64,000 nucleotides of DNA from Desulfomicrobium escambiense DSM 10707. GTDB lineage: Bacteria; Desulfobacterota; Desulfovibrionia; Desulfovibrionales; Desulfomicrobiaceae. The translations under genes and the position numbers were made by a program. The stretch spans positions 62,001 to 126,000 of the forward strand of contig NZ_AUAR01000004.1 in NCBI RefSeq assembly GCF_000428825.1, written 5' to 3'. Under the pieces are notes generated by a model. The model did no database searches. It was not told where the DNA came from and saw only the letters and a list, made by a program, of their open reading frames with translations. Position 1 is the stretch's first letter. Each line of letters opens with the position of its first letter. Positions 28,224-64,000 of the stretch are shown one piece after another.

Positions 28224-28300
28224 CGGGGCGTAGCGCAGTTTGGTAGCGCATCGGTTTTGGGAACCGAGGGTCGCATGTTCGAATCATGTCGCCCCGACCA
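28224..28300 (+). tRNA. tRNA-Pro (anticodon UGG)
   Basis: A complete cloverleaf: acceptor CGGGGCG/CGCCCCG, D stem GCGC/GCGC, anticodon arm TCGGT-TTTGGGA-ACCGA with anticodon TGG, T arm with TTCGAAT and an encoded CCA. The C1-G72 pair is typical of bacterial tRNA-Pro. The island inserts into its 3' half, so the 3' half here is island-borne; the displaced original lies at 51377-51424. A terminator stem (28311-28343) with a T run follows. Confidence 0.97.
28253..28270 (+). repeat. Left attachment site core (attL) in tRNA-Pro
   Basis: 18 bases spanning the anticodon arm (GGTTTTGGGAACCGAGGG) are identical to 51377-51394. Beyond this core the T-stem sequences differ while pairing is preserved, as expected when an integrated element restores the tRNA. 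Confidence 0.9.
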
Positions 28301-50033: not shown

Positions 50034-51194
50034 TTATGCAGTTTTTGGATTTTCAACATCTATCGAAGTATTTTGCTTTTCAATATTCGCAAATAAATTT
50101 CCTGCCACTTCAGCTGCTCGTTTTAGAGCGTCATCACGAAGATGTGCGTAGCGCTGTGTCATTTGCGGAGATTTGTGTGTCAATAGCTTTTGTAGTGTAT
50201 AGATATCAACTTGACCAGAGCTGGCTAGCATTGAAGCATACACATGCCTGAGTCCATGCAAAGCTCGAAAATCTTCAGGAAGTCCGGCGCGGCGTTTTAT
50301 CCGTGCTGTTTGATGTTTGACATCTTTTCTCAAGCCTCCATTTCGGCCTGGGAAGACGTATTCACTGCCTGTTCTGGGGTGGTCCAGAAACAGTTGTCTG
50401 GCCGCTTCGTTCATTGGGATCCGCTGGTCCTTTCCGCCTTTGGGATCGCGGATAAAAATGAAACCTTTATCGAAATCTAAATCAGACCATTTCAGCTTGA
50501 ATATTTCTCCACGGCGCATGCCTGTGAAAAGGGCTGCTTTCATTATCCCTGCTGCTTGTATGTTCGTATCTTCAGCAATCGCTTTGAAAAGACGCTCCAT
50601 TTCATCTGGTGTCAGATCTTCAGTCTTGTGATTATCTGGTTTTGGAAACTCAATGGTAAAGGGCAAGCGAGAGCATAAGTGCATTTTAACGCCAAAATTG
50701 ATAATACGTCGAAACAATTCAAGTGTGTTTTTGACAGTCTGCGGACTCTTTGATTTGAGCATCATCACTCGAACCCTATCCACATCCAGTGGAGCAATTT
50801 CCTCGGGCTCCTTGTGACCGAAAGGAACTTCGAGATAGCGTATGAATCGGCTCTCGTCAGTCTTGATTCCTTTGAAATCAACTTTGCTTTTTTTGTACTC
50901 AGTCCACAGTTTGGAGAGCGTCCAGCGACTGTCGTCCGCCTCTTTCTCTGCCTTGATTTTGTTGCGCCGGGTTTTGTTCGAATCGGACTTTCCGTCTATG
51001 CGCTCGGCCCTTAAGCGGGCTGCCCTGGCTTCGGTCATGTCGTCACGGCCTTGGTAGCCAGCTTTCTCTTCGATCAGCTTTCCATCCCTGCGGTATACGA
51101 TGTAATAGACTCGTTCCGGTTTTCCATCCGCGCCAGTGCCGATGACGAAATAGACGCCTGGATAGCGCGTTTTTTCGCGTTTTCGTGATGGCAT
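50034..51194 (-). CDS. Tyrosine-type site-specific integrase
   Basis: 386 residues. An N-terminal arm-binding part is followed by a core-binding SAM-like domain (WTEYKKSKVDFKGIKTDESRFIRYL) and a catalytic domain with Arg in TGMRRGEIFKL, Lys in DPKGGKDQRIP, HGLRHVYASML (His/Arg) and HKSPQMTQRYAHL with the nucleophile Tyr. The protein is complete. It is placed between the right arm site and attR and points inward, the usual arrangement for an element that enters tRNA 3' ends. It is the likely driver of integration of the 28.25-51.39 kb island. Confidence 0.93.
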   Translation of the reverse strand: MPSRKREKTRYPGVYFVIGTGADGKPERVYYIVYRRDGKLIEEKAGYQGRDDMTEARAARLRAERIDGKSDSNKTRRNKIKAEKEADDSRWTLSKLWTEYKKSKVDFKGIKTDESRFIRYLEVPFGHKEPEEIAPLDVDRVRVMMLKSKSPQTVKNTLELFRRIINFGVKMHLCSRLPFTIEFPKPDNHKTEDLTPDEMERLFKAIAEDTNIQAAGIMKAALFTGMRRGEIFKLKWSDLDFDKGFIFIRDPKGGKDQRIPMNEAARQLFLDHPRTGSEYVFPGRNGGLRKDVKHQTARIKRRAGLPEDFRALHGLRHVYASMLASSGQVDIYTLQKLLTHKSPQMTQRYAHLRDDALKRAAEVAGNLFANIEKQNTSIDVENPKTA

Positions 51195-51376: not shown

Positions 51377-51394
51377 GGTTTTGGGAACCGAGGG
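51377..51394 (+). repeat. Right attachment site core (attR)
   Basis: 18 bases identical to 28253-28270. It is followed directly by the displaced tRNA-Pro 3' half. Confidence 0.9.
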
Positions 51395-51424
51395 CCGCTG
51401 GTTCGAGTCCAGTCGCCCCGACCA
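51377..51424 (+). tRNA. Displaced 3' half of tRNA-Pro (fragment)
   Basis: From the anticodon arm through T arm (TTCGAGT) to CCA, with no D arm or acceptor 5' strand. It differs from the intact gene at compensating T-stem positions and keeps a terminator stem (51433-51468) with seven T, so it is the original chromosomal 3' end left by the insertion. Confidence 0.9.
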
Positions 51425-51592: not shown

Positions 51593-51730
51593 TTAGGTGG
51601 TATTGTGGGGTTCTTGAGCCATTCTTACAGGAAAATCATTACGAGGCGTTCCAATTCTTTGCCAAAGATTGAGTACGCTTGAACCCTTCGGAATGATTGC
51701 ATCGGAACTTGAGACCGTATGGGGAATCAT

Positions 51731-54700
51731 ATGCCGCAGAGTGTGTCTGAGAAGGCTTTTTTCACCAGTTTTCAGAAAGAAGTATGGATTTCTCAGCACT
51801 ATTCCGGGCATGAAGACAATGCATGCATTTTGGCAAAATTTCGAATACTGCGGCGTATCGACAGGGATGTATTGCTGGAGGTCATACGTATTGCGCTGAT
51901 GCATCACGTTTTGATGACGGGGAAGATGCATCTGGATGAAAAGGAACCGTTCTTTGCTTTGCACAGCTACGATGATGTCGATATCTCGTTTGTCGATCTG
52001 CCAGGCGGGAGCGACACCCAGGATGAGATCGAGCGTGAACACGACAGGTTTTTCGAGCAGTCGCTGGGGGAGCGCCCTGTACGCTTTCTTCTCATCCGTT
52101 CGGACGCAGAAAGTTTCTTCGCCCTGAAATGCACGCACATCGCCCTCGACGGGTTCGGGACCTTCTGTTTTGTCGGCTTCATCGCCGACATCTACACCAG
52201 CCTGATGCGCGGCGAGAACGTTCCCATTGACGAGCATCCAGTCTGGCTGGACGTGTACCGGGAGGATCGGGAGCATTTCGCCTCGGCCAAGTTCACGCGG
52301 GACATGGAATTCTGGAAACGCCATCTCGAGCGGATCCCGGAGAAGCGGATTTTCCGGGCCCGGCCGGGGCATGCGGATGTGCTCGGAAATTCCCGGCACA
52401 GGAAATTTCATCTCGGCGAGGAAACGAGCCGGATCATCGACCGCGTCATCCTCCGCCACGGCATCAGCCCCAACATCTATTTCACGGCCCTGCATGCCCT
52501 GATCGTCGCCTTCATGTGCGACGAGAAGCAGTTCGTCATCCTCAACCCCGTCGCCTTCGGCGAGCGCAAGGTGCTGCACAGGCGGCAGGGGTATCAGGTG
52601 GCGATGCCGCCCGTGCTGATCGACCTGAACGAGCACGGTAGCATCGCCGGTCTCTTCGAGGACATTTCCGCCCAGGGGCGGTCGTTCTACCGCCATATCC
52701 GCACCCCGCACCAGGTCGCCATGCGCGAGCTCCCGCACAAGAACTTCTCGTGCCTGGGCGACATGTTCGTAAACTTCATCCCCGGCATGCCGAGCGGGTC
52801 GCCCGAGTTTCCCATCAAGACCGCCGAACAGGTCCACGGCAGGCATGAGGATCTCGTCCTGGGCATGATGGTGCTGCGTGAAGCGGAGACGGATACGTTC
52901 TCCCTGACCGTGCGCAGCAGTTGCAACCATCTGAGCGAGCAGGATGTAGAGCGCTACGTACGCAGGGTGGAGCACCTTTCCCGGCAGTTGGACGCAGGTG
53001 CGGATCTGGCGGACCTGTCCATGCTGCTCGACGAGGAGGAGCGCGAGCTGCGCGTTTGGCAGAACGGGCCGCGCAGGGAATACCCGCTGTCGTCGATCCC
53101 GGACCTGTTCGACGCCGTTGCCGGGAGGTACCGGGATCGGCCAGCGGTCAGGGACGAGGCGGGGGAAGAATTGTCCTACGCGACGCTCGGGGAGCGCTCC
53201 CTGCGGTGCGCGAAGTGGCTTCTGGACAAGGACGTCCGCCGCGGGGACCGCGTCGCCGTGCACGCCCGGCGGGTGCGTTGCCTGCCGGAGATCATCCTGG
53301 GGATCATGCGCATCGGGGCTGTCTATCTCCCGCTGGACCCGGCCTCCCCCCCGGAGCGCCTGCGCCTCATCTTGGACGACGCCGAACCCTCCCTGGTCAT
53401 GGATGCCGCCCGGCCGGAACACGAAAACGCGGCCCCCGCGGAGGTGAGGGAGACAATCGATCCCGCGGAAGGCGCCTACCTGATCTACACGTCCGGTTCC
53501 ACGGGCAGGCCGAAGGGCGTTCTCGTGCCCCACCGTGGTTTCACGAACATGATCCAGGGCCAGATAGAGATCTTCGGCGTGCGTCCCGAGGATCGTGTGC
53601 TGCAGTTCGCCTCTCCGGCCTTCGACGCGTCGCTGTCCGAAACATTCATGGCCCTTCTGGCCGGGGCGAGCCTGTATCCCGTCGGCGAAACCCTGCGCAG
53701 CGAACCCTGGAATCTGCAGGCGTACATGGCCGGCAACGCCGTTTCGGTCGCGACGCTGCCCCCTTCCTACCTGCACCTCCTGGACCGCGACGGGTACTGC
53801 CCGCGGGTGCTCATCACGGCGGGGGAGGCCCCCATCTCCCGGGACGCCCTGCATCTCGCCCGACGCTGCGCATATTTCAACGCCTACGGGCCGACCGAGA
53901 CGAGCGTCTGCGCCACCATCAAACGGGTGCTGCCCGATTCGTCCCAGCCCATCGGCTGCGGCCGTCCGATCCCCAACGTCCGGGCTCATGTCCTCGATTC
54001 CGGGCGCAGGCCCCTGCCGGCCGGCATGGTGGGGGAGCTGCATGTCGGCGGGGCCGGCCTGGCCCTCGGCTACCACGGCAACGCCGAGATGACGGCCCGG
54101 CGCTTCTTTCCGCTCTCCAGCGCCGGCGGCGAGATGGTCTACGCCACCGGCGATCTCGCCTCCTGGTCCGAAGACGGCGATCTCATGCTGGTCGGGCGGA
54201 CCGACGATCAGGTCAAGGTCAGGGGCAACCGCGTCGAACTCGGGGAGGTGACCGCGCTGCTCGAAACGTGCGACGCCGTCAGCCAGGCCTTTGTCCTGGC
54301 CAGCCGGGACGCCGCGGACCAGACCACGCTCGCCGCCTTTCTGGTGCTGCGACCCGGAGGCGCCATCGACTCCGTCGTGCGCTGGAGCAAGGACAACCTG
54401 CCCGGGTACATGATTCCCTCCTTCTGGCATGAGCTCGGCGCCATGCCGGTGACCGTGACCGGCAAGATCGACCGCGAGGCCCTGCGGGCCATCGTCGGCA
54501 GGGCCGAGGCCGCGTCCTCGGGCGGGGCGGACCTGGATCCCCGGCTGTTGAGGATTTTCGAACGGACTCTCGGCTACGCCTACGATCCGCAGCGGGATTT
54601 CTTCGCCCAGGGCGGGGACAGCCTGAAGGCCATGGCCCTTCTGCACGAGATCCGGGCCGCGTATTCGGTGGACGTGGCGTTCCGGGAATTCGTGCGCTGC

Positions 54701-54760
54701 GAATCGCTCCACGACGTGGCGAAGCTGTTGCGGGAGAAGCGTCCTGCGGCCGAGGCGGCG
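51731..54760 (+). other. Megasynthase module 1: C-A-T, tyrosine/aromatic-like pocket
   Basis: The N-terminal C domain has Thr in place of the first His of HHxxxDG but keeps the catalytic His136 and Asp140. The A domain has YTSGSTGRPKGV (586), NAYGPTET, YATGDL, TDDQVKVRGNRVELGE and Lys912. Aligning FDASLSETF, VATLPP, LITAG and NAYGPTETSVC to the phenylalanine-activating GrsA pocket gives D-A-S-T-I-A-A-V-C-K, close to a known tyrosine code (DASTVAAVCK, from memory). An N-terminal C domain on a first module often adds an acyl starter. Confidence 0.75.
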
Positions 54761-57700
54761 TTTTGCGACCAGGCCCCCCTGAACCGCAACCAGTTCCAGC
54801 TGTGGGCCTATCAGCAGGCCAACGACGGTTCCATCGACTACAACATGCCTCTGCTGATGAGGGTTAGCGGGGAGAGGGCGGCGGCGTTTGTCGACGCCCT
54901 GGCCGAGGCCATCGGCCGTCAGGAGCTTCTGGGCTGCACCGTGCAGGGCCCAATCGACGCCCCGTTTTTCCGTCGCGACCCCGACGTCGCCATCCCTGTC
55001 GGGCGCTCCGCCTTCCCGGATTTCGACTCGGCCCAGCGGCACATGCAGGAGTTGATCCACACGCCTTTCGACCTGCGCGCGCAATGCCCTGTGCGGCTGG
55101 AAATCGCCGAGGCGGGCGACGCTTTCGCGGTGCTGCTGCTCCTGCACCATATCGCCGGTGACGCGGACAGCATCGAACTTCTCCTGACGGGCGCCCTGCG
55201 CGGCATGCGCGGGGAACGGGGCGCCGCAGGGCGGCTGGCGACCCAGGCGGCGTTCTGTGCGCGCGAGGAGGCGTATCGGCGCTCGGCCGATTTCGCGGCG
55301 GACAAGGCCTTCTGGGACGCTGTCTTCGCGCCTCCGGCGGCGGTGCTGCATGCCTCGCCCAGGCGCAAGGGCGCCATGGTCGCCCTGGAGCTCACGCCCG
55401 CCATGACCGAGAGCCTTGAAGCGCTGGCCGGCCGGGCAGGCGCCTCGCTCCTGTCGTGTTTCGCGGCCCTGGTTGCGGCCTTTTTGCGGGACAGGTACGC
55501 CCGGCCGGAGCTCCTGGTCGGCGTCCCGGTGGGGCTGCGAGAAAGCGGCGAAGAGTTCGGCACCGTCGGTTTTTTTGTCAACACCGTCGCCCTGCGCCTG
55601 CGCGGGAGGGACCGGGACATGGTCGGGGCCGTGGAGGAAAGCGCCGCCCGGCTCAAGGAGGCCGTGGCGCACAGCCGGTACTGCGACGGCAGGGCGGTTG
55701 ACGTCCTGGCGACCCACGCCCCTGTCCCCCGCGTCGAGGACGACGGGCTCTCCGTGGACATGCTGGCCCCGGAACTCAGGGCCAGCAAGCTGACGGCCAG
55801 TTTCACCCTGGAAACGGGGCCGCGCTGCCGGCTCGTGCTCGAGTACGACGCGCTGTTCATCGAGGACGGCGCCGCGTTGCTGGAGGATTTCCGGGGCTTT
55901 ATCGAAACGGCCTGCGGCGGGAACGAGGTCCCGGACGGGACGCGGACGCTGGTTCGGGCCTGGACGGAGATGCTGGGCCGGGCGCCGGGAGGGGACAGCG
56001 ACTTCTTCATGGACGGCGGCGATTCCATCAAGGCCATCCAGATGACCGGGATGCTCCATCGGCGGGGCGTCACGGCTCTCGGGGCCGCCGATTTCCTGCG
56101 CACGCCGCGGTTCGCGGACCTCTGCGCCCTGGTCGCGGCCGGGAACGCCCCCTTGCAGACCGTACGCTTTGCGCCAGTGGAGGGCGGGCAGCGCGTGCCG
56201 CTGCTGCCCCTGCAGGCCGACCTCCTGCGGAACCACCCGCGGCACTGGACACGCTTCTGCATGGCGCTGCCCCTGGAACTGGACGCGCGGGTGGACGAGG
56301 GCGCCCTGGAGGAATGGCTGCGCACGCTGCCGGACAGGCACGAGGCGCTGCGGCTCGCCTTCTTTGACGGCGCGGCCACGATGCTGTCGCAGCCCCAACG
56401 CCCCTGCCTGACGCGCTGCTCCGTCGACGCTGGCCTGCCGCCGGAAGAGGCGGTGCGCACGGTGGCGCGGGCCGTACTGGCCGGAATCGACCCCGAGCGC
56501 GGCGCGACGTTCGGGGCGGGGCTGGCGGAACACGGGGGCAGGCGCCTGCTGCTGCTGGCCGGGCACCATCTGGTCCTGGATGCCGTGTCCCTTGATCGCC
56601 TGCGGCAGGATCTGACAGCCTGCTGCCTGGGCGCCGGCCGTGCGGCGGAAACCCTCGGCATGGCGACCAGGGCCGTCGAGATGCACAGATTGACGGAGTT
56701 CGGCGATTTTCCCGGCCGGGAGGAGCGCGATTTCTGGGAAGCGGTGTGCAGTACGCCCGGAGCGCGCCTCGTGGGTGTGGCGACCGAAGGGCCGGACCTG
56801 GCTTCGGAGCGTGTTTTCCTGCAGCGCCGGGTGGACGAGCCGCATCGGGGCCGGTCGCGTACCGTGCTGAAGGAACTGCTGACGGCCCTGGCCATGGCCC
56901 TTCACGCCCAAGGTCAGCGGGAGCCGATCTTTGTGACCCTCGAAAGTCACGGACGCGACTCCCTTCTCCCCGGGGCCGACATGAGCCAGAGCGTGGGCTG
57001 GTTCACCGCCGTCTGTCCGCTGCTGCTGCGTCCCGTCGCCGCATGCGAGGACGCGGCCCTGGGCTACGACCCGGACGCACACTTCACGCCGGGCAGCTGT
57101 ACGGCCTACGGGTATCTGCGCCAAGCGCATCCCGACGTGTTTCGTTACGATTCGCAGATCAGCTTCAATTATCTCGGGATGTTGAGTGTCACGGCGGACG
57201 CCGTATGCTGCGCACTCCCCGCCCTGGCCCTGCCGGGAGCGATTCCCGATCTGCTGCATCCCGAGTTCCGGCCGGACAATCCCCTCGATGTCATCGCCTT
57301 TGCCGACGAAGAGGGCGTCCTGCACCTCGGGGCGTATTTCAGCCCGGCCATCCTCGCCGGGGAGTGGGTGTCCGGGCTGTTGGAAGGCTGGGCCGACGTG
57401 CTGGCCGCGAGGGCGAAGAGGCGCCTGGGCGCGTCCGAGGACGTTCTGGCCATGGTCATGGAGAAAAGCGGCTGCCGCCGGGAAGACGTCGAACGCGTCA
57501 CCGCTCCGGACGACTGCCACGAGCCCATGCTCTACCAGTATCTGGCCGGGGACGACGGCGTCTACACGCAGCAGGTCGCCTTTCATTTCCGGGGCCGGAT
57601 CGACGATTTTCTGCTGCTTGGGGCCTGGAGGGGCGTGGTGGCCCGGCATGAAAGCCTGCGCTCCCTCTTTCCCATGACCTTCGAGGGGGAATTCCACCGC

Positions 57701-60700
57701 CTTGTCTTGCGGCAGGCCAGGACCAGCACGGCGTTTCATGACTTTTCCCATCTGCCGCAGGCCCTTGGCGCCGAAAAAATGGACGCGCTCCTCGACGCGG
57801 CGAGGCGCGAGGGCTTCGACCCTCAGACCGGTCCGCTGCTGCGCGCCCAGCTTTTCCGCCTCGGCCCGGATACCTTCACCTTCAGTTGGTGTTGCCATCA
57901 CCTGCTCATGGACGGCTGGTGCATCGGCATCCTGTTGCGGGAGATGTTCGCGCTGCACGACAGTCTTCGGGACGGGGTCTCGGCGGAACTGCCGCAACCG
58001 GCCGACCTGTCAGCCTACACCCGGTGGTTGTCGGCCTTCGACCGGCAGGATGCCAGGCGGTATTGGGCCGCGCTGCTGGCCGACGCGCCCGCGACCCGCA
58101 TCTGCGGACAGGAGACTCCCGGAGTGGCGGGCGACCCGGCCACGGTGGAACTGGCTCTGGACCCGGCCTGTGCCATGGGCCTGCAGGCCGCGGCGCGCGC
58201 AGGCTCCGTGACCCTGTCGGTGCTGGTACAGGCTCTGTGGGCCGTTCTGCTCGGCGCGGAAAGCGGCGGGAGCCGCGATGTCGTCTACGGCATAGTCACC
58301 TCCGGTCGGCCGGCCGAGGTCGACGGCATGGACCGGGCCGTGGGGCTGTTCATCCGCACGCTGCCGCTACGGGTGCGCTGGGCCGAAGGGGATTGTCTGG
58401 GCGGGCTGCTGCGCGGCCTGAAGGAGCAGCACCTCCAGCAGCTGCGCCACGGGTATCTGCCCCTGGCGGACATCGGGCGGGACCTGTTCGATCACCTCAT
58501 GGTCGTGGAGAACTACCCCGCGGACAATCTTTTCGACGCCGACCGGATGGAACTGCTGCGCGTCCAGGGGTTTGAGAAGATCCCTTACCCTCTCGGCATT
58601 TCCGTTATCCCCGGGGACACGTTGCGCGTGCGCTTCCTGTATGATCCGTCCCGCATGGACCATGGACGCGTGCGCGGCCTGGGCGAACGCCTCTTGGGGC
58701 TGGCGCGGGCCGTTGCGGCGGATGGGGCGGTGTCCTGCGCCGCGCTCGAAGCCCTGGCCGCCGGTGCCGGAGGGGTCGCGCCCCATGTGCGGCAAGCGCC
58801 TGCCGCCGCGACCAGCGGCGCGGCCCGGCCGTCGGGGGACTTTTCCGTCGGCGCGGCGGCGCCGGACGTGGAGGATGTCGTCAGGGACATTTACGAGTCC
58901 GTCCTGCAACGCCCGGTGCCGTCCGCGGATGCCGATTTCTTCCGGCTCGGCGGGCACAGCCTGCTGGCCATGCGTGTCCTGGCCCAAATAGGCAGGCGGC
59001 TTCACGTTCGTCTGACCATCGAGGACATCCTGACCCATTCCAGCGTACGGGCCCTGTCAATCCGAGTGCGCACAGCGGCCTCGTCCGCCGTGCGCATCGC
59101 CCGCGCGCCTCGCCGGGACCGCTACCCGCTGTCGGCAAGCCAGAAGCGCATCTGGTTTCTGCAGCGGCTGCACGAGGACAGCGGGGTATACCTGATACCA
59201 TTTGCTGCCCGCCTGGGCGCCGACGTGGACCCGAATCTGCTGCAGGACGCCCTGGGATTGCTGGAAGCGCGGCATGACGCCCTGCGCCTGCGCGTCCTGG
59301 CCGACGAGCCGGAGCAGATGCTCGTCGAGCCGGGCGCCCTGCGGCTCGAACTCCACGACGGTCCCTTCGCTCCGGACGCCTTCGGCGCCATGCCCTTCGG
59401 TCCGGACCGTCCCCTGGTCCGCGCGGCCCTGTTCCGGGAGCCAGACGGCGGGCAGGTCCTGGCCATGTGCCTGCACCACATTGTGTTCGACGGCTGGTCC
59501 GCGGAAATCCTCCTGCGCGAGTTGAACCAGGCCTGCGCGGCCGTGCTGCGCGGGACCGCGCCTGTCTGGGATCCCCTCGACCTCGACTATGTGGACTATG
59601 TCCAATGGGAGCTGGCGCAGGAGCCCGCGGATCTCGAAGCGTTGCGTGCGCGTCTGCTGCCCCTGCCCGAGAGCCTGCGGCTGCCGCTCGATTTTCCCAG
59701 GCCCGCCGTGCAGAGTCTCGACGGGGCCGTGGTCGCCTTCTCCCTGGGCAGGGAGCGAAGCCAGGGCCTCAGACGGCGGGCCGCGGACATGGGTGCGACC
59801 CTCTTTCCGACGCTTCTGGCTCTGGTCCAGACCTTCGTGTACCGGCACACCGGGCAGAACGACATGATCGTCGGATGCCCCGCGGCCAACCGCGAGCTGG
59901 AGCAGGTGCAGAACATGGTCGGCCTGTTCGTCAACACTCTGGCCATTCGCACGACACTGGCCACGGAAATGGGGTTTGCAACTCTGGTCCGCGCCGCACA
60001 GGAGGCGTTCCAGGAATCGCTGGCCCACCAGAACTGTCCGTTCGAGAAGGTGCTGGATGCCCTGAAGCTGGAGCGCAACCCCTCCCGCAACCCGCTTTTC
60101 GACGTTTTCGTGGCACTGGAGGACGCGAGCTGGGCCGATTACGACCAGCTTCCGCTGCGCCTTGAGCCCCTGTCCATGCAGCACGCGGGCAGCAAATTCG
60201 ATCTGAGCTTCTATTTCCGCGAAGGGCGTGACGGCGACATGTCCGTGCACATCGAATACTGCGCGGCCCTGTTCCGCGAAGAGACGATCCTGCTGATGCG
60301 CGAGCGGCTATGCGTGCTCGTTGACGACGTGCTGCAGGGGGGGGACGTCCCTCTGTCCCGCTTGGCCATCCTGCCGGAACATGAACGGGCCGCCATCGAC
60401 GCCTGCAACGACACGGCCGAGGAACTGGACATCGAGCGGGATATCGACGGCTGCTTCCGCGCGCAGGTGCGCCAAAGCAAAGCCGCCGTGGCGCTGCGCG
60501 ACGCCGCTGGGGCGTCCTGCACCTACGGGGAGCTGGACGCCAGAGTGTCGCGCCTCGCGGCCCAGTTGCAGGCCGGCGGCCTTTCGCGGGGCGATTTCGC
60601 CGGAGTCTGCTTCGAGCGCTCCATGGACATGATCGTCGCCGTCTTCGCCGTGCTGCGCGTCGGTGCGACGTACGTGCCCCTGTCGCCGTCACTGCCACAG

Positions 60701-63700
60701 TCGCGGCTTGCTTCGATGCTCGAGGATCTCGGCGCGTGCGCCGTGGTCTGCGAGGCCAGGTTCGCCGACGTGTTCGCCGGACCGGGCCGGACCGTGTTGA
60801 GCCCAGACCCGTTCGCGGCCCATGGCGAATTCGTCCCGGTTCCCGTGGCTCCGGACTCCGTGGCTTACGTCATCTTCACTTCCGGCTCCACCGGCAAGCC
60901 CAAGGGCGTGCCCATCGAGCACCGCAGCCTGGTCAACCGCATCCTCTGGATGCAGTCCCGTTTTCCCATCGGTGAGGGCGACGTCATTCTGCAGAAGACG
61001 ACCGTGTCCTTCGACGTCTCGGTCTGGGAGCTGTTCTGGTGGTCCTGGACCGGTGCGTCCCTGGCTCTGCCGGAACCGGGAGCGGAGCGGGATCCCGGCG
61101 GCATCGTCGCGGCCATCGAGACCAACCGCGTGACCGTGCTCCATTTCGTGCCGTCCATGCTGCGGACCTTCCTCGATCATCTCGAAGTCCGCCCCCGCGA
61201 GGTTCGCAGACTGAAAAGCCTGCGCTACGTGTTCACCAGCGGAGAGGCACTGACGAGTGACCTGGTCGCGCGCTTTCAGGCCCTGGTACCCTGCGAGCTG
61301 CACAACCTCTACGGCCCTACGGAGGCCGCCATCGACGTGACCTGGTTCCCCTGCCGGGGGTTTTCCGGGCATGCCGTGCCCATCGGGAGGCCAGTCAGCA
61401 ACACCCGGATTCACGTGCTCGCCGCGGACCTGCAGACCGTGCCCCTGGGCGTGACCGGCGAACTGTACATCAGCGGTGTGCAGGTTTCTCCCGGATACCT
61501 GCGCCGTCCCGCCCTCACGGCCGCGGCCTTTCTCGACGACCCTTTCCACCCGGGCTGCCGCATGTACCGGACCGGCGACTTGGGGCGCAGGCTCCCCGAC
61601 GGCAACATTGAGTACCTCGGAAGAAACGACGACCAGGTCAAGATTCGCGGTTTCCGCATCGAGCTCGGCGAGGTCGAAAGCGCCTTGGGCCGCTGTGCCG
61701 GCGTGTCGCAGGCCGTGGTGCGCGTCGGGGAGATCGGCGGGCAGTCCGCGCTGGAGGCCTTCGTGCTCCCCCACGAGGGCGTGCGGCTGGCCTACGCGGA
61801 CATCCGCCGCGAACTGGCTGGCCTGCTGCCTGAGTACATGTGGCCCGCGACCCTGGCAGTGGCGGAGGAGATCCCCTTGAGCCCGTCTGGCAAGGCAGAC
61901 CGCAAGAGGGTGACCGGGCGCAGACTGGCGCCCTCCGGCCCGGACGGCGCGGGGGAGACCACGGCGTTGCAGGAGGAGGTCAGGGCCGTGTGGCGCGAGA
62001 TTCTGCCAGAGCTGGAGACCGTCGACCTCGATCAGGGTTTTTTTGAAATCGGCGGCAACTCCCTGCTTCTGGTCAAGCTGCACACGGCTCTGGATGTACG
62101 GTGGCCGGGAGTTTTCAGCCTTGGCGGGCTGTTCGCGGAGAGTACCGTCCGGCAGCAGGCCGCACGCATCGGGGAACGGCCCGGGCCGCGACGTACGGTA
62201 GCGGTCCGAGGCGCGTCCGACGCCCCGGTCGCGGTCATCGGCATGGCCGTTCGCCTCGGCGACTACGAGGACCTGGACAGCTTTTGGGACGACCTGGCCC
62301 AGGGCCGCGACAAGAATGTGCCCCTGCCCACCGGGCGGCGTCAGGAAGTCCGGCAGATTTTCGAGGCTGTGGGCCTGCACTTCGACCCGTCACGGCTGCG
62401 CGAGGCCTCCTATCTGTCCGATGTCTCGTCCTTCGACCCCAGGCGGTTCGGCATGTCGCCGGGCGACGCGGCCATGCTTGACCCCAGGCAGCGCCTCTTC
62501 CTGCAGACGGCCCTGCAGGCCCTCGACGACGCCGGGTACGGTGGTGCGGCCCTGGAGGACGCGCCGGTCGGCGTGTTCGTCGGCGCAAGCCCCTACCGGC
62601 TGTTTCAGGACGCCGTGACGCGCGCGTTTCCGGAGCAGGCCGAACAGACGTATCTGCTGAACGTACCCTCCAATGTCGTGGCCAGGATTAGCTATCTCAA
62701 GAACTGGACAGGGCCGGGGGAAACCGTCGACACTGCCTGCTCCTCTGTCCTCAAGGCGGTCCATGACGCCTGCCGGAGCCTGCGCGCGGGCGATTGCGGC
62801 GTCGCCGTGGTCGGCGGGGCGCATATCATCGACCTGCCGGTCAGGACCGACGCGACCTTCGCCATAGAATCCGGCTCCGGACAGACCAAAACCTTCGACG
62901 CGCGGGCCGACGGCGTCGGGGCGGGCGAGGGGGCGGCCGTCTTCGTGCTCAAGCTTCTGGAACAGGCCGAGCGCGACCGCGACGCCATCCATGCAGTCAT
63001 CGTCGGCAGCGCCGTCAATCAGGACGGCAAATCCTCCAGCATGGCCGCGCCCAACCCCAAAGCGCAGGCCGAGGTCATCGCCCTGGCGGCCGCCAGCGCC
63101 TCCATCGGCCTGGCCGACATCGACGTCTTCGAGGCGCACGGCACGGCCACCGTGCTCGGCGATCCGGTGGAGATCGAGGGTTTGACCCAGGCATTCGCCC
63201 GTTCCGGGGCATCCCCGGCCCGCAAGGCCCCCATCGGGTCCGTCAAGGGCAACATCGGGCACCTCGATGCGGCGGCCGGCGCCCTGGGGTTGGCCAAGGC
63301 CGTGATGTGCCTCAAGCGAGGCGAGGTCCCGCCGCAGCCCCATTTTCAGACGCCCAACCCGCATATCGATTTTGAAGCCGCACCGGTGCGGGTGCCCCGC
63401 GTCTTGGAGCCGCTGCCGCCTGGCGGCAGACCCTGGCATTGCGGAGTCAGTTCCTTCGGCCTGAGCGGCATCAACGTCCACGTCGTGCTCCGGGGGCATT
63501 CCGGCCAGGCGTTGCCGGGGGACGACGGGAGCTGGCACTGCGTGCCCCTGTCCGCGGGCAGCGAGGAGCAGTTGGCGGCCTACTGCCGCCGGGTCCGCGA
63601 CATCGTGGCCCGGCATGAACATTGGCCCTTGCATGCCATCGCGGGCACGCTCACGGCCGGGCGCGAGCATCTCGACGTGCGGATCGCGGTCTGCGCCTCG

Positions 63701-64000
63701 TCCCGACAGGAACTGCTCGACGGCCTCGATGCCGGTCCGCGGCCCGAACGGGTCGGCCGCCCCCTCAGCGGAAGCGTGACAGGGGCCGGCTTCGCCACGC
63801 GGTCCGAAGCCGTCGCGGCCGCCGAGGAATTTCTGCGCGGGCGGTGCCTGCTGTGGCCCGCAGAGCGGCCCCTGCACAGGGTCCATCTGCCCGCGACGCC
63901 CTTCGAGCACAGCCCCATGTGGCCCAGATTCAGGTCCCGCTTCCTTTCCACTCCGGTGCCCACGCCCGGCGGCAGCGCGTTCGCGCTGGACATCGGCCGG
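51731..64000 (+). CDS. Giant hybrid nonribosomal peptide / polyketide synthase (3' end beyond window)
   Basis: One open frame of about 4,090 codons without a stop to the window edge. It starts at ATG 51731 (MPQSVSEKAFFTSFQKE) behind a weak GGGGAA site. Domains: C1 (1-430), A1 (451-945), T1 (Ser964); C2 (1015-1395), T2 (Ser1432), E (1489-1890); C3 (1929-2330), T3 (Ser2410); C4 (2465-2880), A2 (2907-3400), T4 (Ser3444); KS (3498-3925, Cys3670, His3803, His3844). Condensation sites: C1 THIALDG, C2 HHIAGDA, C3 HHLLMDG, C4 HHIVFDG. Modules 2 and 3 have no A domain, and no acyltransferase is seen after KS. The gene makes a peptide-polyketide with at least one D-residue. GC content matches the host. 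No tailoring, thioesterase or MbtH gene lies in the window. Confidence 0.93.
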   Translation, partial: MPQSVSEKAFFTSFQKEVWISQHYSGHEDNACILAKFRILRRIDRDVLLEVIRIALMHHVLMTGKMHLDEKEPFFALHSYDDVDISFVDLPGGSDTQDEIEREHDRFFEQSLGERPVRFLLIRSDAESFFALKCTHIALDGFGTFCFVGFIADIYTSLMRGENVPIDEHPVWLDVYREDREHFASAKFTRDMEFWKRHLERIPEKRIFRARPGHADVLGNSRHRKFHLGEETSRIIDRVILRHGISPNIYFTALHALIVAFMCDEKQFVILNPVAFGERKVLHRRQGYQVAMPPVLIDLNEHGSIAGLFEDISAQGRSFYRHIRTPHQVAMRELPHKNFSCLGDMFVNFIPGMPSGSPEFPIKTAEQVHGRHEDLVLGMMVLREAETDTFSLTVRSSCNHLSEQDVERYVRRVEHLSRQLDAGADLADLSMLLDEEERELRVWQNGPRREYPLSSIPDLFDAVAGRYRDRPAVRDEAGEELSYATLGERSLRCAKWLLDKDVRRGDRVAVHARRVRCLPEIILGIMRIGAVYLPLDPASPPERLRLILDDAEPSLVMDAARPEHENAAPAEVRETIDPAEGAYLIYTSGSTGRPKGVLVPHRGFTNMIQGQIEIFGVRPEDRVLQFASPAFDASLSETFMALLAGASLYPVGETLRSEPWNLQAYMAGNAVSVATLPPSYLHLLDRDGYCPRVLITAGEAPISRDALHLARRCAYFNAYGPTETSVCATIKRVLPDSSQPIGCGRPIPNVRAHVLDSGRRPLPAGMVGELHVGGAGLALGYHGNAEMTARRFFPLSSAGGEMVYATGDLASWSEDGDLMLVGRTDDQVKVRGNRVELGEVTALLETCDAVSQAFVLASRDAADQTTLAAFLVLRPGGAIDSVVRWSKDNLPGYMIPSFWHELGAMPVTVTGKIDREALRAIVGRAEAASSGGADLDPRLLRIFERTLGYAYDPQRDFFAQGGDSLKAMALLHEIRAAYSVDVAFREFVRCESLHDVAKLLREKRPAAEAAFCDQAPLNRNQFQLWAYQQANDGSIDYNMPLLMRVSGERAAAFVDALAEAIGRQELLGCTVQGPIDAPFFRRDPDVAIPVGRSAFPDFDSAQRHMQELIHTPFDLRAQCPVRLEIAEAGDAFAVLLLLHHIAGDADSIELLLTGALRGMRGERGAAGRLATQAAFCAREEAYRRSADFAADKAFWDAVFAPPAAVLHASPRRKGAMVALELTPAMTESLEALAGRAGASLLSCFAALVAAFLRDRYARPELLVGVPVGLRESGEEFGTVGFFVNTVALRLRGRDRDMVGAVEESAARLKEAVAHSRYCDGRAVDVLATHAPVPRVEDDGLSVDMLAPELRASKLTASFTLETGPRCRLVLEYDALFIEDGAALLEDFRGFIETACGGNEVPDGTRTLVRAWTEMLGRAPGGDSDFFMDGGDSIKAIQMTGMLHRRGVTALGAADFLRTPRFADLCALVAAGNAPLQTVRFAPVEGGQRVPLLPLQADLLRNHPRHWTRFCMALPLELDARVDEGALEEWLRTLPDRHEALRLAFFDGAATMLSQPQRPCLTRCSVDAGLPPEEAVRTVARAVLAGIDPERGATFGAGLAEHGGRRLLLLAGHHLVLDAVSLDRLRQDLTACCLGAGRAAETLGMATRAVEMHRLTEFGDFPGREERDFWEAVCSTPGARLVGVATEGPDLASERVFLQRRVDEPHRGRSRTVLKELLTALAMALHAQGQREPIFVTLESHGRDSLLPGADMSQSVGWFTAVCPLLLRPVAACEDAALGYDPDAHFTPGSCTAYGYLRQAHPDVFRYDSQISFNYLGMLSVTADAVCCALPALALPGAIPDLLHPEFRPDNPLDVIAFADEEGVLHLGAYFSPAILAGEWVSGLLEGWADVLAARAKRRLGASEDVLAMVMEKSGCRREDVERVTAPDDCHEPMLYQYLAGDDGVYTQQVAFHFRGRIDDFLLLGAWRGVVARHESLRSLFPMTFEGEFHRLVLRQARTSTAFHDFSHLPQALGAEKMDALLDAARREGFDPQTGPLLRAQLFRLGPDTFTFSWCCHHLLMDGWCIGILLREMFALHDSLRDGVSAELPQPADLSAYTRWLSAFDRQDARRYWAALLADAPATRICGQETPGVAGDPATVELALDPACAMGLQAAARAGSVTLSVLVQALWAVLLGAESGGSRDVVYGIVTSGRPAEVDGMDRAVGLFIRTLPLRVRWAEGDCLGGLLRGLKEQHLQQLRHGYLPLADIGRDLFDHLMVVENYPADNLFDADRMELLRVQGFEKIPYPLGISVIPGDTLRVRFLYDPSRMDHGRVRGLGERLLGLARAVAADGAVSCAALEALAAGAGGVAPHVRQAPAAATSGAARPSGDFSVGAAAPDVEDVVRDIYESVLQRPVPSADADFFRLGGHSLLAMRVLAQIGRRLHVRLTIEDILTHSSVRALSIRVRTAASSAVRIARAPRRDRYPLSASQKRIWFLQRLHEDSGVYLIPFAARLGADVDPNLLQDALGLLEARHDALRLRVLADEPEQMLVEPGALRLELHDGPFAPDAFGAMPFGPDRPLVRAALFREPDGGQVLAMCLHHIVFDGWSAEILLRELNQACAAVLRGTAPVWDPLDLDYVDYVQWELAQEPADLEALRARLLPLPESLRLPLDFPRPAVQSLDGAVVAFSLGRERSQGLRRRAADMGATLFPTLLALVQTFVYRHTGQNDMIVGCPAANRELEQVQNMVGLFVNTLAIRTTLATEMGFATLVRAAQEAFQESLAHQNCPFEKVLDALKLERNPSRNPLFDVFVALEDASWADYDQLPLRLEPLSMQHAGSKFDLSFYFREGRDGDMSVHIEYCAALFREETILLMRERLCVLVDDVLQGGDVPLSRLAILPEHERAAIDACNDTAEELDIERDIDGCFRAQVRQSKAAVALRDAAGASCTYGELDARVSRLAAQLQAGGLSRGDFAGVCFERSMDMIVAVFAVLRVGATYVPLSPSLPQSRLASMLEDLGACAVVCEARFADVFAGPGRTVLSPDPFAAHGEFVPVPVAPDSVAYVIFTSGSTGKPKGVPIEHRSLVNRILWMQSRFPIGEGDVILQKTTVSFDVSVWELFWWSWTGASLALPEPGAERDPGGIVAAIETNRVTVLHFVPSMLRTFLDHLEVRPREVRRLKSLRYVFTSGEALTSDLVARFQALVPCELHNLYGPTEAAIDVTWFPCRGFSGHAVPIGRPVSNTRIHVLAADLQTVPLGVTGELYISGVQVSPGYLRRPALTAAAFLDDPFHPGCRMYRTGDLGRRLPDGNIEYLGRNDDQVKIRGFRIELGEVESALGRCAGVSQAVVRVGEIGGQSALEAFVLPHEGVRLAYADIRRELAGLLPEYMWPATLAVAEEIPLSPSGKADRKRVTGRRLAPSGPDGAGETTALQEEVRAVWREILPELETVDLDQGFFEIGGNSLLLVKLHTALDVRWPGVFSLGGLFAESTVRQQAARIGERPGPRRTVAVRGASDAPVAVIGMAVRLGDYEDLDSFWDDLAQGRDKNVPLPTGRRQEVRQIFEAVGLHFDPSRLREASYLSDVSSFDPRRFGMSPGDAAMLDPRQRLFLQTALQALDDAGYGGAALEDAPVGVFVGASPYRLFQDAVTRAFPEQAEQTYLLNVPSNVVARISYLKNWTGPGETVDTACSSVLKAVHDACRSLRAGDCGVAVVGGAHIIDLPVRTDATFAIESGSGQTKTFDARADGVGAGEGAAVFVLKLLEQAERDRDAIHAVIVGSAVNQDGKSSSMAAPNPKAQAEVIALAAASASIGLADIDVFEAHGTATVLGDPVEIEGLTQAFARSGASPARKAPIGSVKGNIGHLDAAAGALGLAKAVMCLKRGEVPPQPHFQTPNPHIDFEAAPVRVPRVLEPLPPGGRPWHCGVSSFGLSGINVHVVLRGHSGQALPGDDGSWHCVPLSAGSEEQLAAYCRRVRDIVARHEHWPLHAIAGTLTAGREHLDVRIAVCASSRQELLDGLDAGPRPERVGRPLSGSVTGAGFATRSEAVAAAEEFLRGRCLLWPAERPLHRVHLPATPFEHSPMWPRFRSRFLSTPVPTPGGSAFALDIGR
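54773..57450 (+). other. Megasynthase module 2: C-T-E without an adenylation domain
   Basis: C2 (HHIAGDA, last Gly replaced by Ala) is followed after about 250 residues, past VNTVALRLRG, directly by the carrier MDGGDSIKAI (the form that precedes E domains), then an epimerization domain: GHHLVLDAVSL (His1612-1613), LESHGRD, QSVGWFTAVCP and SFNYLG. No A motifs lie between C2 and T2. Confidence 0.8.
57515..59090 (+). other. Megasynthase module 3: C-T without an adenylation domain
   Basis: C3 has an intact CHHLLMDGW (His2056-2057, Asp2061) and GRPAEVDGMDRAVGLFIRTLPLRV, fitting a C domain that takes a D-configured donor after E. It is followed directly by the carrier LGGHSLLAMRV (Ser2410). Again no A motifs. 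Confidence 0.8.
59123..62190 (+). other. Megasynthase module 4: C-A-T, serine-like pocket
   Basis: C4 has HHIVFDGW (His2582-2583). A2 has FTSGSTGKPKGV, NLYGPTEA, YRTGDLGR, DDQVKIRGFRIELGE and Lys3388. The pocket read from FDVSVWELF, VLHFVP, YVFTSG and NLYGPTEAAID is D-V-W-H-F-S-L-I-D-K, one conservative change from the serine code of EntF. The carrier is IGGNSLLLVKL (Ser3444). Confidence 0.82.
62222..64000 (+). other. Megasynthase module 5: ketosynthase and post-KS region, cut by window end
   Basis: KS begins APVAVIGMAVRLGD and has all three catalytic residues: Cys in DTACSSV, His in EAHGTATVLGDP and His in KGNIGHLDAAAG. After GVSSFGLSGINVHVVL, a linker of about 150 residues ends VHLPATPFEHSPMWPRF, the kind of post-KS tail that directly precedes modification domains when no cis-AT is present. 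No GHSxG acyltransferase motif is seen to the window end. Confidence 0.8.

Follow-up and report, generated by a model that had tools for sequence, protein, structure and literature searches.

We analyzed a stretch of 64,000 nucleotides (the window, positions 62001-126000 of contig C4 in G000, a genome of 3.78 Mb in 38 contigs) that ends within the gene of an NRPS-PKS megasynthase. The open reading frame runs without a stop from 51719 to the window edge at 64000; an in-frame ATG four codons further on, at 51731, is preceded by a better ribosome-binding site and could reasonably be the start. Pfam profiles recognized in this part five condensation (C) domains, only two AMP-binding (A) domains, four PP-binding (T) domains and both the N- and C-terminal parts of a ketosynthase (KS), and the genome-wide positions concur. 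Domain mapping gave the order C1-A1-T1-C2-T2-E2-C3-T3-C4-A2-T4-KS, in agreement with a sequence-only reading of the window, and the specificity codes bear out the Tyr-like and Ser-like A domains which that reading had named.

51719..64000, plus strand: NRPS-PKS megasynthase, first 4094 of 5438 aa, continuing to G000:C4:130035 (window-equivalent 68035)
51746..53053, plus strand: C1, N-terminal condensation domain, (S/T)HxxxDG motif
53090..54493, plus strand: A1, Tyr/Phe-like code DASTIAAVC(K), invariant in 14 homologues
54536..54727, plus strand: T1, from domain mapping
54764..55903, plus strand: C2 of module 2, which lacks an A domain
55934..56128, plus strand: T2 of the same module, GGDS, starting 10 residues past C2
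56183..57415, plus strand: E2, epimerization domain
57491..58738, plus strand: C3 of module 3, which lacks an A domain, HHLLMDG
58865..59068, plus strand: T3 of the same module, GGHS, starting 42 residues past C3
59105..60403, plus strand: C4
60446..61930, plus strand: A2, Ser code DVWHFSLID(K)
61952..62164, plus strand: T4, from domain mapping
62219..63505, plus strand: KS, with the active-site Cys and both His motifs
63521..63928, plus strand: KS-AT-type linker, RhiE/CurL-like, with no AT behind it
63956..64000, plus strand: start of a DH-like domain, HxxxGxxxxV with the Pro replaced; KR, T5 and C5 follow past the window

C1 is probably a starter C domain that provides an acyl cap, and E2 is identified as an epimerization domain by its nearest relatives of solved structure, T-E didomains from GrsA, TycA and PvdL. 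Past the window the reading frame adds DH-KR-T5-C5 and reaches 5438 aa, and a second frame of 1134 aa (A3[MT]-T6-TE) overlaps it by 4 nt. The full line is C-A-T / C-T-E / C-T / C-A-T / KS-DH-KR-T / C // A[MT]-T-TE. What had been read as a single-gene megasynthase is therefore two reading frames in G000 and a one-protein fusion in one relative. Of the components that were to be sought past 64000, the release domain was found, as the TE of the second frame; a free A domain, MbtH and a dedicated AT were not. Behind C5 lies a tail of ~176 residues (L002:16505-17032, plus strand) with a weak, partial likeness to condensation domains (E 0.015). In the fused protein of G684 the spacing from C5 to A3 is ~160 residues less, so the tail may have a role in docking between the two synthases.

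An intact tRNA-Pro(TGG) gene on the left (28224-28300) and a partial 3' copy on the right (51377-51423) flank 23 kb of low GC (41-58%), with a phage-type integrase (50034-51194, minus strand) at the right end and an exact 24-bp repeat at both ends. This suggests that an element has integrated here, 0.3 kb upstream of the megasynthase.

The absence of A domains from modules 2 (C-T-E) and 3 (C-T), proposed by the sequence-only reading, is confirmed by both Pfam and gap lengths: the C2-T2 and C3-T3 gaps fall far short of the ~500 aa that an A domain needs, and there is no room for one. The HHxxxD motifs of C2 and C3 and the carrier serines of T2 and T3 are intact. With their C and T domains complete and no A domain of their own, both modules show the mark of nonlinear (type C) NRPSs.

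Using a profile of this region, we found it in 18 of 348 genomes of Desulfovibrionales, distributed over six genera; an even sample of the phylum (395 genomes) confined the carriers to this order. The layout is identical in all 11 species in which both synthases are complete (G000, G007, G030, G034, G046, G385, G498, G475, G584, G590 and G684), the last with both fused as one 6431-aa protein. The order is unchanged in G347, where the first protein is split in the KR/T5 region, and agrees wherever it is readable in the truncated G593, G503 and MC09; the relatives include a MAG that bears the label Pseudodesulfovibrio. The active-site motifs of C2, T2, E2, C3 and T3 are retained among homologues at ~50% protein identity, and the A codes are constant (A1 DASTIAAVC, A2 DVWHFSL(I/V)D, A3 Gln-like). 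The DH domain keeps its catalytic His and Asp, but all homologues with the motif read have Val or Ala in place of the Pro of HxxxGxxxxP. In a single species, G046, residues 4884-5037 of the first synthase form a tandem second copy of the ketide carrier T5. This NRPS-PKS family is a genuine, old and working design. Searches of open-access papers turned up no description of this domain order and nothing relevant on Desulfovibrio clusters, and a DNA comparison against plasmid records returned nothing but generic A-domain matches. As far as open-access papers show, the family is uncharacterised, with partial precedents for its two successive modules without A domains.

The KS with an AT-type linker and no AT in cis is typical of trans-AT systems, although a discrete, dedicated trans-AT is missing from the cluster. 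A dedicated enzyme was also sought genome-wide in G000 and G007 and rejected, the only AT in each being an isolated frame of 339-367 aa on a different contig, assigned to FabD from its size and type. Since this sole AT is FabD-sized, the module is likened to that of the barnesin line, where FabD serves an AT-less module in E. coli (PMC13096860); FabD would likewise supply malonate here. In the terminal module, the AMP-binding domain of A3 is split at profile position 98/152 with a methyltransferase (201-312) in between, the a2-a3 position of known interrupted A domains. The known a2-a3 type methylates the Cys side chain on sulfur, whereas the A3 code, DAQDLAVVD, is Gln-like.

Several genes accompany the synthases in their neighbourhoods.

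L003:480-1568, plus strand: PF00144 serine hydrolase, directly behind the TE gene
L003:11835-12596: PPTase, by Pfam
L003:13437-14573, minus strand: KamA-family radical-SAM aminomutase, Asp293 replaced by Met

All 14 flanked neighbourhoods contain both the aminomutase and a type II thioesterase. A PPTase was detected by homology in 11 of the 14, and by Pfam also in G000 and G007; the Pfam match overturned an impression from homology that the window synthase had none nearby. Most clusters add a cyclic-peptide ABC exporter, a periplasmic binding protein, and DUF697 and SPFH proteins. The PF00144 hydrolase, found in roughly half of the clusters, has a signal-peptide-like start and the motifs SVTK and YSN; its position and family are reminiscent of prodrug-cleaving peptidases of the ClbP type, but membrane helices were not apparent by eye.

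The aminomutase belongs to the KamA family (TIGR00238, 256.8 bits against a cut-off of 199.2, with CxxxCxxC) and scores well below the cut-off of the AblA equivalog TIGR03820 (259.5 against 525.4). Its orthologues (at least 64% identity; next best 47%) are found in 16 of the 18 carriers, the other two being incomplete assemblies, versus none of 330 other genomes (Fisher p ~1e-25, a value not corrected for shared ancestry). Inherited with this synthase alone, the enzyme points to a beta-amino acid as a likely part of the product. Asp293 of lysine 2,3-aminomutase (2A5H), which we take to be the lysine ligand for the epsilon-amino group, aligns to an invariant Met in 9 of 9 aligned homologues; lysine is thus an unlikely substrate, and the enzyme probably acts on another amino acid. 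Paper searches on aminomutase substrate residues returned nothing relevant.

For the loading of T2 and T3 we searched G000 and its relatives with the PF00501 and TIGR01733 profiles at curated cut-offs. No A domain beyond A1 and A2 exceeded the NRPS cut-off (AA-adenylation) in G000, G007, G030 and G046; A3 falls short of it, as its interruption would lead one to expect. Four of the five carrier genomes checked are therefore without another NRPS-grade A domain, and the fifth, G034, has a second, separate NRPS. The five also lack MbtH, no condensation domain lies outside the line in G000, and the neighbourhoods of 14 clusters contain no conserved free A domain, adenylating enzyme or MbtH. A free-standing A enzyme was thus rejected as a candidate, the second NRPS of G034 aside. 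The expectation of the sequence-only reading that a free A enzyme, MbtH or a dedicated AT would lie nearby failed in the genome search, the sole AT being FabD-like; its other option, re-use of an A domain of the line, gained support from the four genomes with no further NRPS-grade A domain.

Since neither another NRPS-grade A domain, in these four genomes, nor a conserved adenylating enzyme, in the 14 neighbourhoods, was found, the in-line A domains most likely serve T2 and T3, and a dedicated free A enzyme for these carriers is unlikely. Charging through re-use of A1, A2 or A3 appears to be the best explanation: an A domain would load its own carrier and also reach those without one, for which mannopeptimycin (re-use for a C-T-E module) and AMB (loading in trans) offer precedents. 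For T2 the leading candidate would be A1, for T3 either A1 or A3. In a carrier tree T2 joins T1 and T3 joins T4/T6, a grouping weakly supported, with T1-T6 only 15-29% identical to one another; we rejected the tree as a guide to A-T pairing. The predicted product, freed by the terminal TE, would be an N-acylated peptide with the order acyl - Tyr/Phe - D-X2 - X3 - Ser - (C2 ketide) - methylated Gln/Glu-like residue; the starter acyl group, methylation, level of ketide reduction, export and the product itself are predictions from domain content. Taken whole, this explanation (a two-protein line of trans-AT type, re-use of in-line A domains, malonate from FabD and an N-acylated peptide) is one that we consider rather probable.

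Against in-line re-use, the beta-amino acid suggested by the co-inherited aminomutase is not an obvious prediction from any of the three A codes. It is conceivable, if unlikely, that T2, T3 or both receive a beta-amino acid made by the KamA-family enzyme through a non-classical adenylating enzyme (acyl-CoA-ligase-like or aminoacyl-tRNA-synthetase-like) encoded elsewhere. The aminomutase of all 14 flanked neighbourhoods, with orthologues limited to carriers, would be accounted for, and G000 encodes further AMP-binding proteins under the NRPS cut-off; yet the neighbourhood is without a conserved adenylating enzyme, and the substrate of E2 is an alpha-aminoacyl unit, epimerized at its alpha-carbon, so that an alpha-residue at T2 fits better. 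The more specific proposal that a non-NRPS adenylating enzyme loads these carriers with a non-lysine beta-amino acid, as yet undescribed, from the aminomutase is improbable; if true, it would be a new way to feed an assembly line.

We also doubt strongly that T2 and T3 merely relay the chain or are skipped, modules 2 and 3 adding no residue. In favour of this, neither carrier has an A domain to load it in cis; however, the HHxxxD motifs of C2 and C3, the E2 motif and the serines of T2 and T3 are retained in every covering homologue from six genera, and at such divergence relic modules would be expected to decay, which argues strongly against vestigial modules. The sequence-only reading had held that no frame break was at work; an assembly or sequencing artefact, or a recent loss of two A domains in one strain, is ruled out for practical purposes, since independent genomes from six genera share identical junctions.

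Two consecutive modules without A domains, unchanged in six genera, offer a natural set for the question of how one A domain serves several carriers, and four near-complete genomes with just three NRPS A domains keep the list of loading candidates short. One A domain serving several carriers breaks the collinearity rule behind genome-based peptide prediction. The co-inherited aminomutase and the PKS step, probably served by FabD, represent testable chemistry in anaerobes, from which few such products are known.

Among known systems, lysine 2,3-aminomutase (2A5H) shares with the aminomutase CxxxCxxC, the KamA-family radical-SAM profile and a C-terminal motif with a Lys, a potential PLP-binding site, but differs at Asp293, the lysine ligand, which is Met here. 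TioN and MarQ likewise carry a methyltransferase between motifs a2 and a3, whereas A3 is Gln-like rather than Cys-specific, and T-TE comes next to it on the terminal protein. The barnesin A cluster (brn) of Sulfurospirillum barnesii, also an anaerobe, has an N-terminal C domain followed by a Tyr-type A domain, an AT-less KS/DH/KR module behind an NRPS module with FabD as trans-AT, a dedicated PPTase and a cyclic-peptide transporter; its description mentions neither modules without A domains nor an aminomutase, an E domain or an interrupted A domain, and reports a single further homologous cluster (PMC13096860). The brnE/brnF architecture is not reproduced here, the likeness to that family being one of function in the PKS step. 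Carriers without a working A domain in cis are loaded in trans in AMB (AmbB/AmbE), syringomycin (SyrB1/SyrE), WS9326A and albicidin, with AmbB loading T2 of AmbE in vitro (PMC4357302), but these systems use an A domain or A-T unit on another protein, of which none was found here. The mannopeptimycin NRPS (C-A-T-E-C-A-T-C-T-E) shares the C-A-T-C-T-E block, whose two carriers are reportedly both fed by one A domain (PMC8949500), whereas in the line described here a second module without an A domain (C-T) follows directly, then a PKS module, and the substrates are different.
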